Assembly: GCA_945901825.1 (NCBI GenBank)
Contig: CAMDMC010000077.1
Location: 1 to 10,122, forward strand
Source of the DNA: Bordetella parapertussis
GTDB taxonomy: Bacteria; Pseudomonadota; Gammaproteobacteria; Burkholderiales; Burkholderiaceae_A
DNA length: 10,122 nt
Direction: 5' to 3'
The number at the start of each line of letters is the position of its first letter. The stretch's first letter is position 1. Of this stretch, positions 1 to 6,145 are shown piece after piece. A model generated the notes under the pieces. It was not told where the DNA came from and made no database searches. It saw only the letters and a list, made by a program, of their open reading frames with translations. The translations under genes were made by a program, and so were the position numbers.

Positions 1-63
1 GCCAAGTACGACCCCTTCCGTGATCGTGACTTCTACAGTCTTGTTCTCAGCACAAGCTTCTAA
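1..63 (+). CDS. C-terminal end of outer-membrane beta-barrel protein, probably DUF1302 family (partial)
   Basis: Only the last 20 codons and the TAA stop (61-63) are in the window. The tail ends FYSLVLSTSF, an alternating polar/hydrophobic strand with a terminal phenylalanine. That is the classic C-terminal signature of outer-membrane barrels recognised by the BAM machinery. DUF1302 proteins are predicted barrels that commonly sit directly upstream of DUF1329 genes, and the next gene here is DUF1329, so I assign this tail to DUF1302 by tail type plus context. The barrel character is fairly well supported. The exact family is inference, because almost all of the protein lies outside the window. 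It would be the outer-membrane member of the cluster. Confidence 0.55.
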   Translation, partial: AKYDPFRDRDFYSLVLSTSF

Positions 64-78
64 GGCTTAGGTAATAGC

Positions 79-2494: not shown

Positions 2495-4941
2495 GTTCCA
2501 CGGTCTCGTTGCCGCCCGACATGGCCGCCCCGTCGCCTCCTCCGCCAGGGTCGTCCGGTTCAAGGCCTCCTGCCGAGCCTCCAGAACCTCCAAAGCCACC
2601 GCCCAATGCTGAGGGCCCCGCCTGGTTGCAGCGGCTGGCTGACCGGCTAATTCACTACCGCCGCAGTCTTATTGTCTTCTTCACGCTCTTAACCCTGGTG
2701 CTTGCAGGCACTGCAACCTTGTTGCGCACCGACGCGGGCTTTACCAAGATGACTCCTTTGGATCATCCTTTCATGCAGGTCTTCTTGAAATACCAGTCGG
2801 CCTTTGGAAATGCCAACCGGGTGCTGCTTGCGGTTCATGCCAAGGATGGCTCCATTTACACCCCCGAGGGGCTGGATCTTCTAAAGAAGGCCACTGAAGA
2901 AGTCTTCTACATTGAAGGGGTTGAGCGTAGTTCGGTCACCTCCCTTTTTACGCCCAATGTTCGTTTTACCGAAGTGGTGGAGGAGGGCTTTCGTGGCGGC
3001 AATGTGGTGTCTGCCGACTATGCGGGGCTGCCTGACCAGATCGAACAGGTCAAGGCCAATGTGGCGAAGTCCGATTGGGTCGGCCGCATTATTTCAACCG
3101 ATGGCAGCTCGGCCATGGTCGTGGCAAGCCTTCAGGAAAGCGATCCACAGACAGGCAAGCCAACCGACCTGAAGGCCGTTGCTAAAAGCTTTGAGTCCAT
3201 TCGGCAGCAGCTTCAAACAGATAGCCATTCCATTCATATCATTGGCTTTGCCAAAGCCGTGGGTGACATTGCCGATGGGGCGGCGGGGGTGCTGGTGTTT
3301 TTTGGACTGGCCTTTGTTGTCACCACATTGCTTCTGTATTTCTATAGCCGCTCGGTCATGCTGACCTTCTATGCCTTGGGCTGCGCAGTGGTTCCCGTGG
3401 TCTGGTTGTTGGGGCTGATGCCCTTGGTGGGCCTGGGTCTTGACCCCCTTTCCATTCTTGTGCCCTTTCTTATTTTTGCTATTGCCGTCTCGCATGCGGT
3501 GCAAATGACCAATGCCTGGCGGCTTGAGATAGTGGCCGGTCGTGATGCCAAGCAGGCCTCGCACCAGTCCTTCTGTAAGCTCTTTGTCCCTGGGGCTATG
3601 GCACTGCTTGCCAATGGCCTGGGGTTTCTTGTCATTGCCTTTGTTCCTATTGGAATTGTGCGCGAGCTTGCCTACACCGCCACACTGGGTGTCTTGGTGA
3701 TGATCCTCTCGAACAAGCTCTTGCTGCCCGCTTTGCTCTCCTATCGGCAGAACGCGTCCTTCCGTCCCCCGTCCGAGCAATCCATGATTGGTGTCTGGCG
3801 TGTCCTGGCGCGGCTATCGCGCAAGGGGCCTGCAAGCATCATGATTCTTGCCTCGGTGGTGGTGCTTGCCGTGGGTGTCTACATTGCCAAAGACCGACAG
3901 GTGGGCGACCTGGGGCAGGGCGTACCCGAACTGCGACCCGAGTCGCGCTACAACCAAGACACCGAGCTTATTACCAAACGTTTTGCCATCGGTGTGGATG
4001 TGATGCAGGTGATTGTGGAGGTGGATGGCAGCGACTCGCCGTGTGTCTCGCCCACGGTGATGGAGCCTCTGGCCGAGTTTGAACTCATCATGCGACAGAA
4101 CCCCGGAGTCACCGCGGTGAGTGGCCTGGCAGGTTTCACCGCACGGGTGTCCCAGGCCTATGCCGAGAACAACATTAAGTGGCGGGCACTGCCTGCCGAT
4201 GAGCAGCAGATTGCGCAAGGCGTTGGTGCGGCCACGCGGTTAGGCAATATGCTAATGAACCCAGGCTGCACGGCCCTGCCCGTTTCCATTTATACCCAAG
4301 ACCATCAGGCGCCCACCATTCGCTCGGTCGTCAACGATGTAGAAGACTTTGCCAGGGTCTTTGAGCGCGACGACCTTCGGTTTGAAATTGGCCTTGGTAA
4401 TTTAAGTGTCATGGCTGCTACCAACGAGGTGGTGCAGTCCTCCGATCGCTGGGTGAACCTTGCACTCTTTGGTGCGGTCACCCTTTTGTGCCTCATAACC
4501 TTTCGTTCGGTGGCCATTACGCTTTGCATCATCCTTCCCTTGGCGCTTGTTACCGTGCTTTGCAATGCCGTGATGACCTGGCTTGATATTGGTCTGAAGG
4601 TCAACACCCTTCCCGTGGTGGCCCTTGGAGTAGGCGTTGGCGTGGACTATGGCATTTACCTTTTTGAACGCATTCGTCACGAGCTGCAAAAGGGTGAGGT
4701 GCTTGAACAGGCGGTGTTTGAGGCCCTTCGGCAACGGGGAACAGCCTCGCTTTTTACCGCGGTCACCATGACGGTCTCCGTTCTCACCTGGCTGGGGTCC
4801 GATCTTCAGTTCCAGTCCGACATGGGCCTGCTGCTTGGCTTTATGTTCTTGGTTAATCTTTTTGGTGCCGTCCTTCTGCTGCCCGCCTTGGCTGCGTTTC
4901 TTGTTCAGAAGTTGCCCCCGGCGAATGGGCATGCAGCCTAA
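2491..4941 (+). CDS. MMPL-type RND superfamily inner-membrane transporter
   Basis: This 816-residue protein has the two-fold layout of MMPL/HpnN-like RND proteins, which generally move lipids or other hydrophobic molecules. Helix TM1 (about 59-77) is followed by a large periplasmic loop (78-264) and five helices (about 265-416). TM7 (450-466) is followed by a second loop (467-653) and five helices (about 654-805). The second half carries GVGVGVDYGIYLFER (713-727), the G-x-x-x-D-Y proton-relay motif, with Asp719. The matching helix in the first half reads FAIAVSHAVQ (329-338) and has Ser-His there, so the acidic residue is present in one half only. Residues 8-43, on the cytoplasmic side, contain 17 prolines. 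The start overlaps the propeller stop (ATGA), and no strong Shine-Dalgarno is visible, so translation is probably coupled. There is no adjacent membrane-fusion protein as in drug-efflux RND systems. Confidence 0.93.
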   Translation: MSSTVSLPPDMAAPSPPPPGSSGSRPPAEPPEPPKPPPNAEGPAWLQRLADRLIHYRRSLIVFFTLLTLVLAGTATLLRTDAGFTKMTPLDHPFMQVFLKYQSAFGNANRVLLAVHAKDGSIYTPEGLDLLKKATEEVFYIEGVERSSVTSLFTPNVRFTEVVEEGFRGGNVVSADYAGLPDQIEQVKANVAKSDWVGRIISTDGSSAMVVASLQESDPQTGKPTDLKAVAKSFESIRQQLQTDSHSIHIIGFAKAVGDIADGAAGVLVFFGLAFVVTTLLLYFYSRSVMLTFYALGCAVVPVVWLLGLMPLVGLGLDPLSILVPFLIFAIAVSHAVQMTNAWRLEIVAGRDAKQASHQSFCKLFVPGAMALLANGLGFLVIAFVPIGIVRELAYTATLGVLVMILSNKLLLPALLSYRQNASFRPPSEQSMIGVWRVLARLSRKGPASIMILASVVVLAVGVYIAKDRQVGDLGQGVPELRPESRYNQDTELITKRFAIGVDVMQVIVEVDGSDSPCVSPTVMEPLAEFELIMRQNPGVTAVSGLAGFTARVSQAYAENNIKWRALPADEQQIAQGVGAATRLGNMLMNPGCTALPVSIYTQDHQAPTIRSVVNDVEDFARVFERDDLRFEIGLGNLSVMAATNEVVQSSDRWVNLALFGAVTLLCLITFRSVAITLCIILPLALVTVLCNAVMTWLDIGLKVNTLPVVALGVGVGVDYGIYLFERIRHELQKGEVLEQAVFEALRQRGTASLFTAVTMTVSVLTWLGSDLQFQSDMGLLLGFMFLVNLFGAVLLLPALAAFLVQKLPPANGHAA

Positions 4942-6145
4942 AGCCCTTGAGCGACGGCATTTTCTAAAGAGTTCGGTGCAGTGCGCAGCGGCTGGCCTTT
5001 GCGCCTCAAGCCATGACCTATCTGCCCAGACATCCTCAGGCGATCCCACCAAGCCTAATGGCTCTTTAAACGGCCTGCCTAAAGAACTCAGCGCGACGAA
5101 CTTTCAAGACCTTGGGGCATTGGTTCCTCAGGGACTTGCTGCCTTACTAAAGCAGTATCCAAGCCTTCGCTTTCCTATCGAACCGTCAAAGGCCCTTCCA
5201 CCGGCTTCAGCTCAGGCCATGCTCGCCTCCTTTGCGGGGTCGAATGCCCTCATTCGGTCGCAGACCAACCCGGCACTTGCCAAGATGCAGGGCCATCTTT
5301 TTCGGCCACGCCCAGTCAACCTGTATCGCCAGGGGCGTGCCTACCCGGTGCGTGCCGATGGAGGGTTCTACGAGATTCATTATTGGTCGCATCGCGTGGG
5401 GGCCTCGGCACTGTCCAATGCACCCCCGGCGCTCTGGTTTGCGGTAAAGGGAGGCTACCTTGCTCCATCAAGCCTGCGAGGCGATGCACTTCTGGTGCAT
5501 GAATACCAGCCGCAGGCCGACACACTGGATACAGCACGGCGTCAGGCATGGATTTATCAGTCTGGAAGTCGAAGGGTACGACGCGCGCCCGATCTGGCCT
5601 ATGACGCAGTGAGCGATGGTTCGGAGGGCATGATGACCGCCGATCAGGTGGATGGCTTTAACGGGGCTACAGACCGTTACGACTGGATCGACCTCGGTGA
5701 GACCGAGCGGCTTATTGCCTACAACATGCTTGAAGGTGCGCAGGCCAGTCTCTCGGCAAACGAGCTGCTTGGGCGTGGCAGCTTAAAGAGCACGTCCTTT
5801 CGTCTTGAGCGACATGCTGTGCACCAGATTGAGGCTAGGCTGCGACCGGGTCAGCAGCACATTTATGCGCGACGACTATTTCTTATTGATACAGCGACAA
5901 AGACCATTGTTATGGAAGAGGCCTTTGATGCCCGAGGTGGCCTTTGGCGTGTGGCCTTGCATGGCCTGGCCTTTCATGAAGCCTTAGGCTGCGCGCAGAT
6001 ACGCGTTTCGGTCTACCATGACCTGCTTTCGGGAGGCTATGTTGTCACGGGGCTTGACCCCGAGTCGGGCCCTGTTTTTGAGACCCAGCGACCTGCACGC
6101 TGGACTGATTTTCAGCCCGATGCCTTGCGAAGGCTTGGGCGTTAG
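4925..6145 (+). CDS. DUF1329 family periplasmic protein, Tat signal (divergent paralogue 2)
   Basis: This 406-residue protein is a second DUF1329 member. It has a near-perfect Tat motif, ERRHFLK (residues 9-15), and a probable cleavage near LSAQ (32-35). It shares with the first paralogue YLAPSSL (178-184), RRVRRAPDLAYD (216-227), DGSEGM (231-236), FNGATDRYDW (245-254) and the ending FQPDALRRLG (396-405). It lacks the NADGSIPAYTGG...DPFA segment that opens the mature part of the first protein, so its N-terminal domain is shorter and divergent. ATG 4925 overlaps the RND gene by 17 bp; ATG 4931 is an equally possible start, 11-bp overlap. Neither has a strong Shine-Dalgarno, which suggests coupling to the RND gene. 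It likely pairs with the RND pump or with the first paralogue, but that is inference. Confidence 0.9.
   Translation: MGMQPKALERRHFLKSSVQCAAAGLCASSHDLSAQTSSGDPTKPNGSLNGLPKELSATNFQDLGALVPQGLAALLKQYPSLRFPIEPSKALPPASAQAMLASFAGSNALIRSQTNPALAKMQGHLFRPRPVNLYRQGRAYPVRADGGFYEIHYWSHRVGASALSNAPPALWFAVKGGYLAPSSLRGDALLVHEYQPQADTLDTARRQAWIYQSGSRRVRRAPDLAYDAVSDGSEGMMTADQVDGFNGATDRYDWIDLGETERLIAYNMLEGAQASLSANELLGRGSLKSTSFRLERHAVHQIEARLRPGQQHIYARRLFLIDTATKTIVMEEAFDARGGLWRVALHGLAFHEALGCAQIRVSVYHDLLSGGYVVTGLDPESGPVFETQRPARWTDFQPDALRRLGR

Follow-up and report, generated by a model that had tools for sequence, protein, structure and literature searches.

A DUF1329, YCF48 and RND gene set of the AmeABCD type with a second carrier gene and likely twin-arginine signals in a Bordetella parapertussis assembly

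The closest described relative of the system analysed here is AmeABCD of Castellaniella defragrans, a four-part set published in 2018 as a tetrapartite monoterpene exporter with a deletion phenotype, and considered by its authors a likely new HAE3 subfamily (PMC6394551). Here, we describe such a set in a stretch of 10,122 nucleotides from a Bordetella parapertussis assembly (GCA_945901825.1, contig CAMDMC010000077.1), hereafter called the window. The proposed unit comprises five genes on the + strand, that is the tail of a likely DUF1302 outer-membrane barrel, a first DUF1329 gene (DUF1329-1), a YCF48 propeller gene, a gene for an MMPL-type resistance-nodulation-division (RND) protein and a second DUF1329 gene (DUF1329-2). 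We found that the system is of the published kind, and that its apparently new features are a position-specific second carrier and twin-arginine signals, neither of which we met in the literature searched on DUF1329, DUF1302 and AmeABCD-type sets. Judging from sequence, barrel, two carriers, propeller and RND protein may form a route, driven by protons, along which fatty acids or acyl lipids pass between the two membranes, more likely inward, a reading to which we give a probability of about 45%.

Published relatives and recurrence of the set

Like the window, the AmeABCD locus (L030) and that of Thauera terpenica (L032) encode a DUF1302 barrel, a DUF1329 protein, a COG4447/YCF48 protein and an HAE3-type RND protein in the same order, and the window RND protein is 55-56% identical to both RND proteins over most of its length. 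The A-B-C-D order is found in the window, which holds only the last 20 barrel codons, and in a further locus, L002. First, the window has two DUF1329 genes versus one in the examined stretches of L030 and L032, which makes it a variant of the AmeABCD type. Second, the DUF1329 proteins in those stretches are without a twin arginine, whereas the window DUF1329 proteins carry it. Third, AmeABCD lies in a monoterpene island, whereas the relatives of the window lie beside fad genes.

Sets with similar parts have been described elsewhere. In Pseudomonas putida, four proteins including DUF1302 and DUF1329 members are essential on Tween 20, and co-folding predicted a strong contact between PP_2018 and the transporter PP_2019, with weaker contacts of DUF1329 to the transporter and to the barrel (PMC10866462). 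PP_0765/PP_0766 and PP_2018/PP_2019 resemble the window in combining DUF1302, DUF1329, a periplasmic protein and an efflux-type transporter; in contrast to the window, there is a single carrier, and the locus tags place the barrel and carrier genes away from those of the other two proteins. By likeness of roles, PP_2018 may be the YCF48-type protein and PP_2019 a member of the AmeD line. In the benzene degrader ORM2a, a “Nanopod” cluster encoding a porin-like protein, DUF1329, YCF48 and MMPL proteins is expressed, the direction of transport being left undecided, and the same paper cites that deletion of a Delftia DUF1329 gene impaired growth on phenanthrene (PMC13101534). The ORM2a cluster differs from the window by additional universal stress and hypothetical genes, its benzene context and its host, a member of the Desulfobacterota. 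Delftia nanopods contain DUF1302 and DUF1329 proteins (PMC3110197). Given the AmeABCD and P. putida sets, the statement in a preliminary description of the window that no mechanism or cargo was established for this set was too strong.

A scan of genome contigs with the RND protein confirmed 361 relatives. We retained the best 80 loci; the denominators for neighbouring genes are the loci with enough flank. A YCF48 gene adjoins the RND gene in 79 of 80 loci, a DUF1329 gene lies directly upstream in 51/74 and downstream in 10/71, and a colinear barrel is found in 43/66. Eleven of the 23 loci without an upstream DUF1329 gene have one elsewhere in the examined stretch. The family of the nearest relative comprises 26 genomes, of which the identical 12 are marked by DUF1329, by DUF1302 and by the RND type; the 26 are related drafts of 1.1-2.3 Mb and so not independent cases. 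The association of these genes is beyond chance, and the set is a real, conserved system. The preliminary description had named these families in an operon-like, one-direction order with short or overlapping junctions, which profile scores and coordinates confirm, and the co-occurrence that it called for is found. Its statement that similar clusters recur near genes for hydrophobic-compound metabolism is also borne out.

Two predicted DUF1329 carriers and their likely twin-arginine signals

The predicted model of DUF1329-1 has a LolA/LolB-type fold and falls within the LolA/LolB superfamily, in support of the LolA-like fold proposed earlier for DUF1329. The accompanying idea that DUF1329 replaces the membrane-fusion protein of RND pumps is not supported: a soluble LolA-like carrier has the fold of a shuttle, not of an adaptor tube. 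Compared to LolA and LolB, including LolA3 of Porphyromonas gingivalis (9tp6; PMC13103446), the mature DUF1329 protein has about 100 extra N-terminal residues, and its partner would likely be the RND set instead of LolCDE. For the YCF48 protein, a search of solved structures by sequence gave no match.

The two carriers of the window are only about 36-38% identical to each other, and therefore DUF1329-2 is not a recent copy. Rather, it represents a distantly related paralogue, found again at this position, after the RND gene, in other loci. A second DUF1329 gene lies directly behind the RND gene in L001, L006, L011, L015, L025 and L031, and one gene further in L034, L035, L038, L130, L132 and L138. 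The gene in between is nitronate-monooxygenase-like in the four copies scanned with Pfam (L130, L136, L137, L138). By likeness, such a gene also stands directly behind the RND gene in L132, L134 and L139, and in front of a second DUF1329 gene wherever the examined stretch reaches that far.

A tree of 118 rows, which includes 29 selected from 240 listed DUF1329 matches and excludes L136, L137 and L139 because they duplicate L038, L035 and L034, needs two changes for the division into downstream and upstream DUF1329 proteins, compared to 13.9 in shuffles. The odd row is L072, whose DUF1329 gene lies about 1.3 kb away. In a cleaned tree of 14 downstream and 59 upstream rows, without L072, all “other” loci and the P rows, and with L006, L051 and L014 N-terminally shortened, the downstream carriers form one side of a branch with one change and a support of 20. 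The window DUF1329-2 falls in a starred downstream set of nine rows (96), to which a long-branch warning is attached. A single clade of all second DUF1329 genes was considered and not upheld, the branch in the cleaned tree having a support of only 20.

Twin arginines precede a hydrophobic stretch in all three periplasmic proteins of the window, DUF1329-1, YCF48 and DUF1329-2. We counted the signal in relatives by a motif rule, in a loose and a strict form and not by a trained predictor, without the fragments P0009 and P0265; the protein searches cover the best 120 of 944 DUF1329 matches, the best 120 of 225 YCF48 matches and, for a third search, the best 120 of 5836. Among the matches listed, DUF1329-1 orthologues of at least 66% identity carry the motif in 22/24 (loose) or 21/24 cases (strict), and relatives below 66% in 2/95 or 1/95. 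The two orthologues without it start, by their look, behind the signal, and the surroundings of the motif vary (RRAWL, RRTLM, RRQLM, RRRLL). Again among the matches listed, the motif is present in 8/8 (loose) or 6/8 (strict) DUF1329-2 orthologues of at least 60% identity and in 5/5 or 4/5 YCF48 orthologues of at least 76%, and it is visible in all 13 of them. The rule also fires in 35/111 (loose) or 14/111 (strict) other DUF1329 matches among the best 120 of 944, and in 34/115 or 22/115 other YCF48 matches among the best 120 of 225, some of which are plain MRR starts or belong to an upstream overlapping frame. Since the rule is unspecific there, the sharp split is established for DUF1329-1 only.

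For the first 80 loci and the window, a twin arginine was absent from the searched part of 61/80 DUF1329 and 62/80 YCF48 proteins. In a 366 kb sample of genome G001, scanned over the first 45 residues of the longest frame per open reading frame (ORF), the strict rule picks out 4 of 343 ORFs, a lower bound, and all three window proteins. A stricter first rule gave 0/343 in this sample and was relaxed because it missed the RRAWL signal of L131. TatC is present in 25 of the 26 genomes of the family. By the motif rule, the motif precedes a hydrophobic stretch and is conserved in orthologues, as for substrates of the twin-arginine translocation (Tat) system, and the periplasmic proteins of the clade of the window would be exported folded by this route.

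Likely cargo and direction of transport

The window RND protein scores 142.5 bits against the HAE3 model TIGR00921, below the curated cut-off of 351.9 and still its best NCBIfam match, 70.6 bits against HpnN (TIGR03480; curated cut-off 751.85) and 30.5 bits against BstA (cut-off 1400). In an alignment of 80 RND proteins, including that of the window and without the cut L002 copy, the first-half pair S334-H335 and the second-half pair D719-Y720 are invariant (80/80). HpnN and MmpL5 belong to the same RND superfamily and share the MMPL domain; in alignments with their PDB structures, HpnN carries an Asp in the motif of the first half but not in that of the second, and MmpL5 shows Asp-Tyr in both motifs, whereas the window protein has Asp-Tyr only in the second half. 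The score and the position of the pair speak against the HpnN type, which the preliminary description had brought up. We infer a motor with one proton site, in the second half. Motif conservation is partly biased, since the loci were found with patterns including AVQMTNAW and DLQFQSDM; the S-H and D-Y pairs themselves fall outside these patterns. Among L129-L140, chosen without these patterns, SHAVQ and the Asp-Tyr pair are present in 9/9 full-length RND proteins, three of which are the same DNA as L038, L035 and L034.

The relatives of the window carry fatty-acid genes beside the set. L001 is flanked by genes for a thiolase-like protein, FadE, TetR, a barrel and an alpha/beta hydrolase with a lipoprotein-like signal, and L131 by genes for an AMP-forming ligase, FadB-type, thiolase, FadE, TetR and GDSL proteins. 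FadB-type, thiolase-like and FadE-like genes also flank L130, L132 and L136-L139, some of them cut at the end of the stretch. The FadE, TetR and hydrolase genes of L001, the GDSL gene of L130 and the named genes of L131, L136 and L137 were assigned with Pfam, and the remaining flank genes by likeness. Esterase genes with a lipoprotein-like signal stand beside the barrel in L001, L130, L131 and L136.

A long FadE-type gene was found in 10 of the 12 set-bearing genomes, in all ten at 0.9-3.5 kb from a DUF1302 or DUF1329 gene, and nine of the ten have just one FadE-type match. For G020, the FadE gene near the set was matched only partially, at the end of a contig, and in G008 the parts of the set lie on different contigs, with the barrel as the neighbour of FadE. 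Seven genomes of the family have FadE without the set. Because FadE-type genes are strongly linked to the set in relatives, we favour fatty acids or acyl lipids as cargo, and the set likely handles such compounds. The Tween 20 phenotype of the P. putida homologues suggests acyl esters. A reading in which the set replaces FadL was dropped: FadL is missing in 10/12 set genomes, but also in 6/7 FadE genomes without the set.

In the inward route that we prefer, acyl chains would be freed by a lipoprotein esterase, the gene of which adjoins that of the barrel in several relatives. The chains would enter through the porin-like DUF1302 barrel and be taken into the LolA-like cavity of DUF1329-1. The propeller would dock the carrier onto the RND protein, and DUF1329-2 would serve as second carrier in a two-step hand-off, by analogy with LolA giving its cargo to LolB. 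The RND protein, energised via the second-half Asp-Tyr pair, would then release the cargo into the inner membrane and so make it available to acyl-CoA ligase and FadE.

The main rival is an export pump as proposed for AmeABCD, in which the RND protein takes up toxic hydrophobic compounds or surplus fatty acids, the carriers pass them on and the barrel releases them; we regard it as less likely for the window. RND proteins mostly export, and homology and gene order of the set match AmeABCD. In addition, the AmeABCD authors concluded on export, and their deletion mutant lost limonene tolerance and showed a slightly higher uptake of Nile Red after addition of carbonyl cyanide m-chlorophenylhydrazone (CCCP) (PMC6394551). 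However, release of preloaded Nile Red was nearly identical in the mutant and the wild type (PMC6394551), and the P. putida homologues are required for growth on Tween 20 (PMC10866462), both of which speak against export. So do the link of the set to esterases and to genes for the breakdown of fatty acids in the window's family, a possible closeness of the barrel to OprD/Occ substrate-specific porins, and the lack of any match to an outer-membrane factor family among the nine window proteins scanned.

It is improbable that the set instead delivers the esterase itself, the LolA-like carriers and the barrel putting a lipoprotein esterase on the surface so that growth defects on esters follow. 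The predicted LolA/LolB fold of DUF1329-1, the esterase genes adjoining the barrel in the four loci named above and an earlier suspicion that the P. putida proteins have a role in hydrolase activity, reported in the Foldy paper (PMC10866462), would fit such a delivery. Nevertheless, no such esterase gene was seen by eye, from sequence starts of ORFs of at least 150 aa, in the examined stretches beside the barrels of L132, L138 and L139, the terpene and benzene versions require no esterase, and a lipoprotein route would have no need of an RND pump. Equally hard to credit is envelope upkeep, in which the set would supply the outer membrane with lipids of the cell itself, much as HpnN and BstA transport hopanoids and sterols: the RND type is weakly related to both and two LolA-like carriers fit a lipid shuttle, but its scores lie far under both cut-offs, the set adjoins fad genes, and its absence from 14/26 family genomes means that it has no core envelope function there.

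Gene layout and biological meaning

Spacers of 86 bp and 41 bp separate the barrel from DUF1329-1 and DUF1329-1 from YCF48 (Table 1). The YCF48 and RND genes overlap by 4 bp and the RND and DUF1329-2 genes by 11-17 bp, and thus the RND gene overlaps both its neighbours. Beyond the gene of the major facilitator superfamily (MFS) transporter lie genes for a VOC protein, an RluF-like pseudouridine synthase and AcuI on the - strand, and the start of nadA. The MFS gene may be part of the same unit; an MFS transporter also stands behind the set in L001, L129 and L131, members of the twin-arginine clade. In L001, a phosphoenolpyruvate carboxylase gene (15003-17735; 985.6 bits) lies between the MFS and VOC genes and is absent at window 7431-7554. 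An Rfam search of the window gave no match, and a plasmid search returned 12 records, each spanning at most 13% of the query.

Table 1. Features of the set and its surroundings in the window.
Feature	Coordinates	Strand	Basis
DUF1302 outer-membrane barrel, 3' end	1..63	+	last 20 codons, match to L001/L002 barrels
Terminator-like hairpin, barrel/DUF1329-1 spacer	77..106	+	12 pairs, T-rich tail
DUF1329-1, likely periplasmic LolA-like carrier	150..1439	+	DUF1329 381.6 bits; LolA_like 43.1; motif LRRRFLALT
Hairpin around likely YCF48 start codon	1462..1490	+	11 pairs, T-rich tail
YCF48/BNR propeller	ORF 1391-2494, likely start 1481	+	PSII_BNR 29.7 bits (cut-off 27); motif MGRRFFLGR
MMPL-type RND protein, AmeD line	2491..4941	+	PF03176 111 bits (cut-off 20.5); S334-H335, D719-Y720
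DUF1329-2, distant paralogue	ORF 4835-6145, likely start 4925 or 4931	+	215.9 bits; motif ERRHFLKSS
MFS transporter	6184..7431	+	38 bp behind DUF1329-2

The barrel tail shares 18/20 residues with the barrel end of L002 and 17/20 with that of L001, whose barrel is a DUF1302 protein (477 bits); the predicted model of the DUF1302 barrel of a relative shows a porin fold. L001 served as close relative for comparison, being 95% identical in DNA over 7.2 kb. The similarity stops at about window 245, within the signal peptide of DUF1329-1 (L001 7645-7755), and upstream of the break lie, in L001, a hydrolase and a barrel in inverted orientation that shares about 50-55% identity with the barrel of L002. 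The front end was thus exchanged, with the mature carrier nearly unchanged. The two signal peptides differ, yet both are twin-arginine. L001 DUF1329-2, L001 FadE and G001 TatC have interrupted frames, which resemble assembly or sequencing errors in a draft genome. A more distant set, L140 (G009), has two tandem barrels upstream of DUF1329, and its genome has no FadE-type match.

At the place of the first hairpin, L002 has an inverted repeat without T run, as read from the letters without folding, and for this reason the hairpin may be a processing site. The second hairpin, a strong one, holds the likely YCF48 start codon within its 3' arm; L001 and L002 share it, and L133 has a version with a mismatch. 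It could act as an attenuator or translation lock that raises the carrier above RND levels.

These findings bear on how fatty acids and oily nutrients cross the periplasm and on how bacteria without FadL acquire them. The FadE link, the two DUF1329 carriers, the RND motor and the twin-arginine clade make the direction, the hand-off and the export route testable. In its boldest form, which we consider unlikely as a whole, the system would be a bacterial counterpart of NPC2/NPC1, with an inward RND protein and two serial LolA-like carriers, exported folded by Tat, that receive fatty acids at a porin-like barrel and deliver them to the inner membrane. If so, export of folded carriers by Tat could allow a lipid or partner to bind to them while they are still in the cytoplasm. 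If transport is inward, the set would be an RND machine for uptake.

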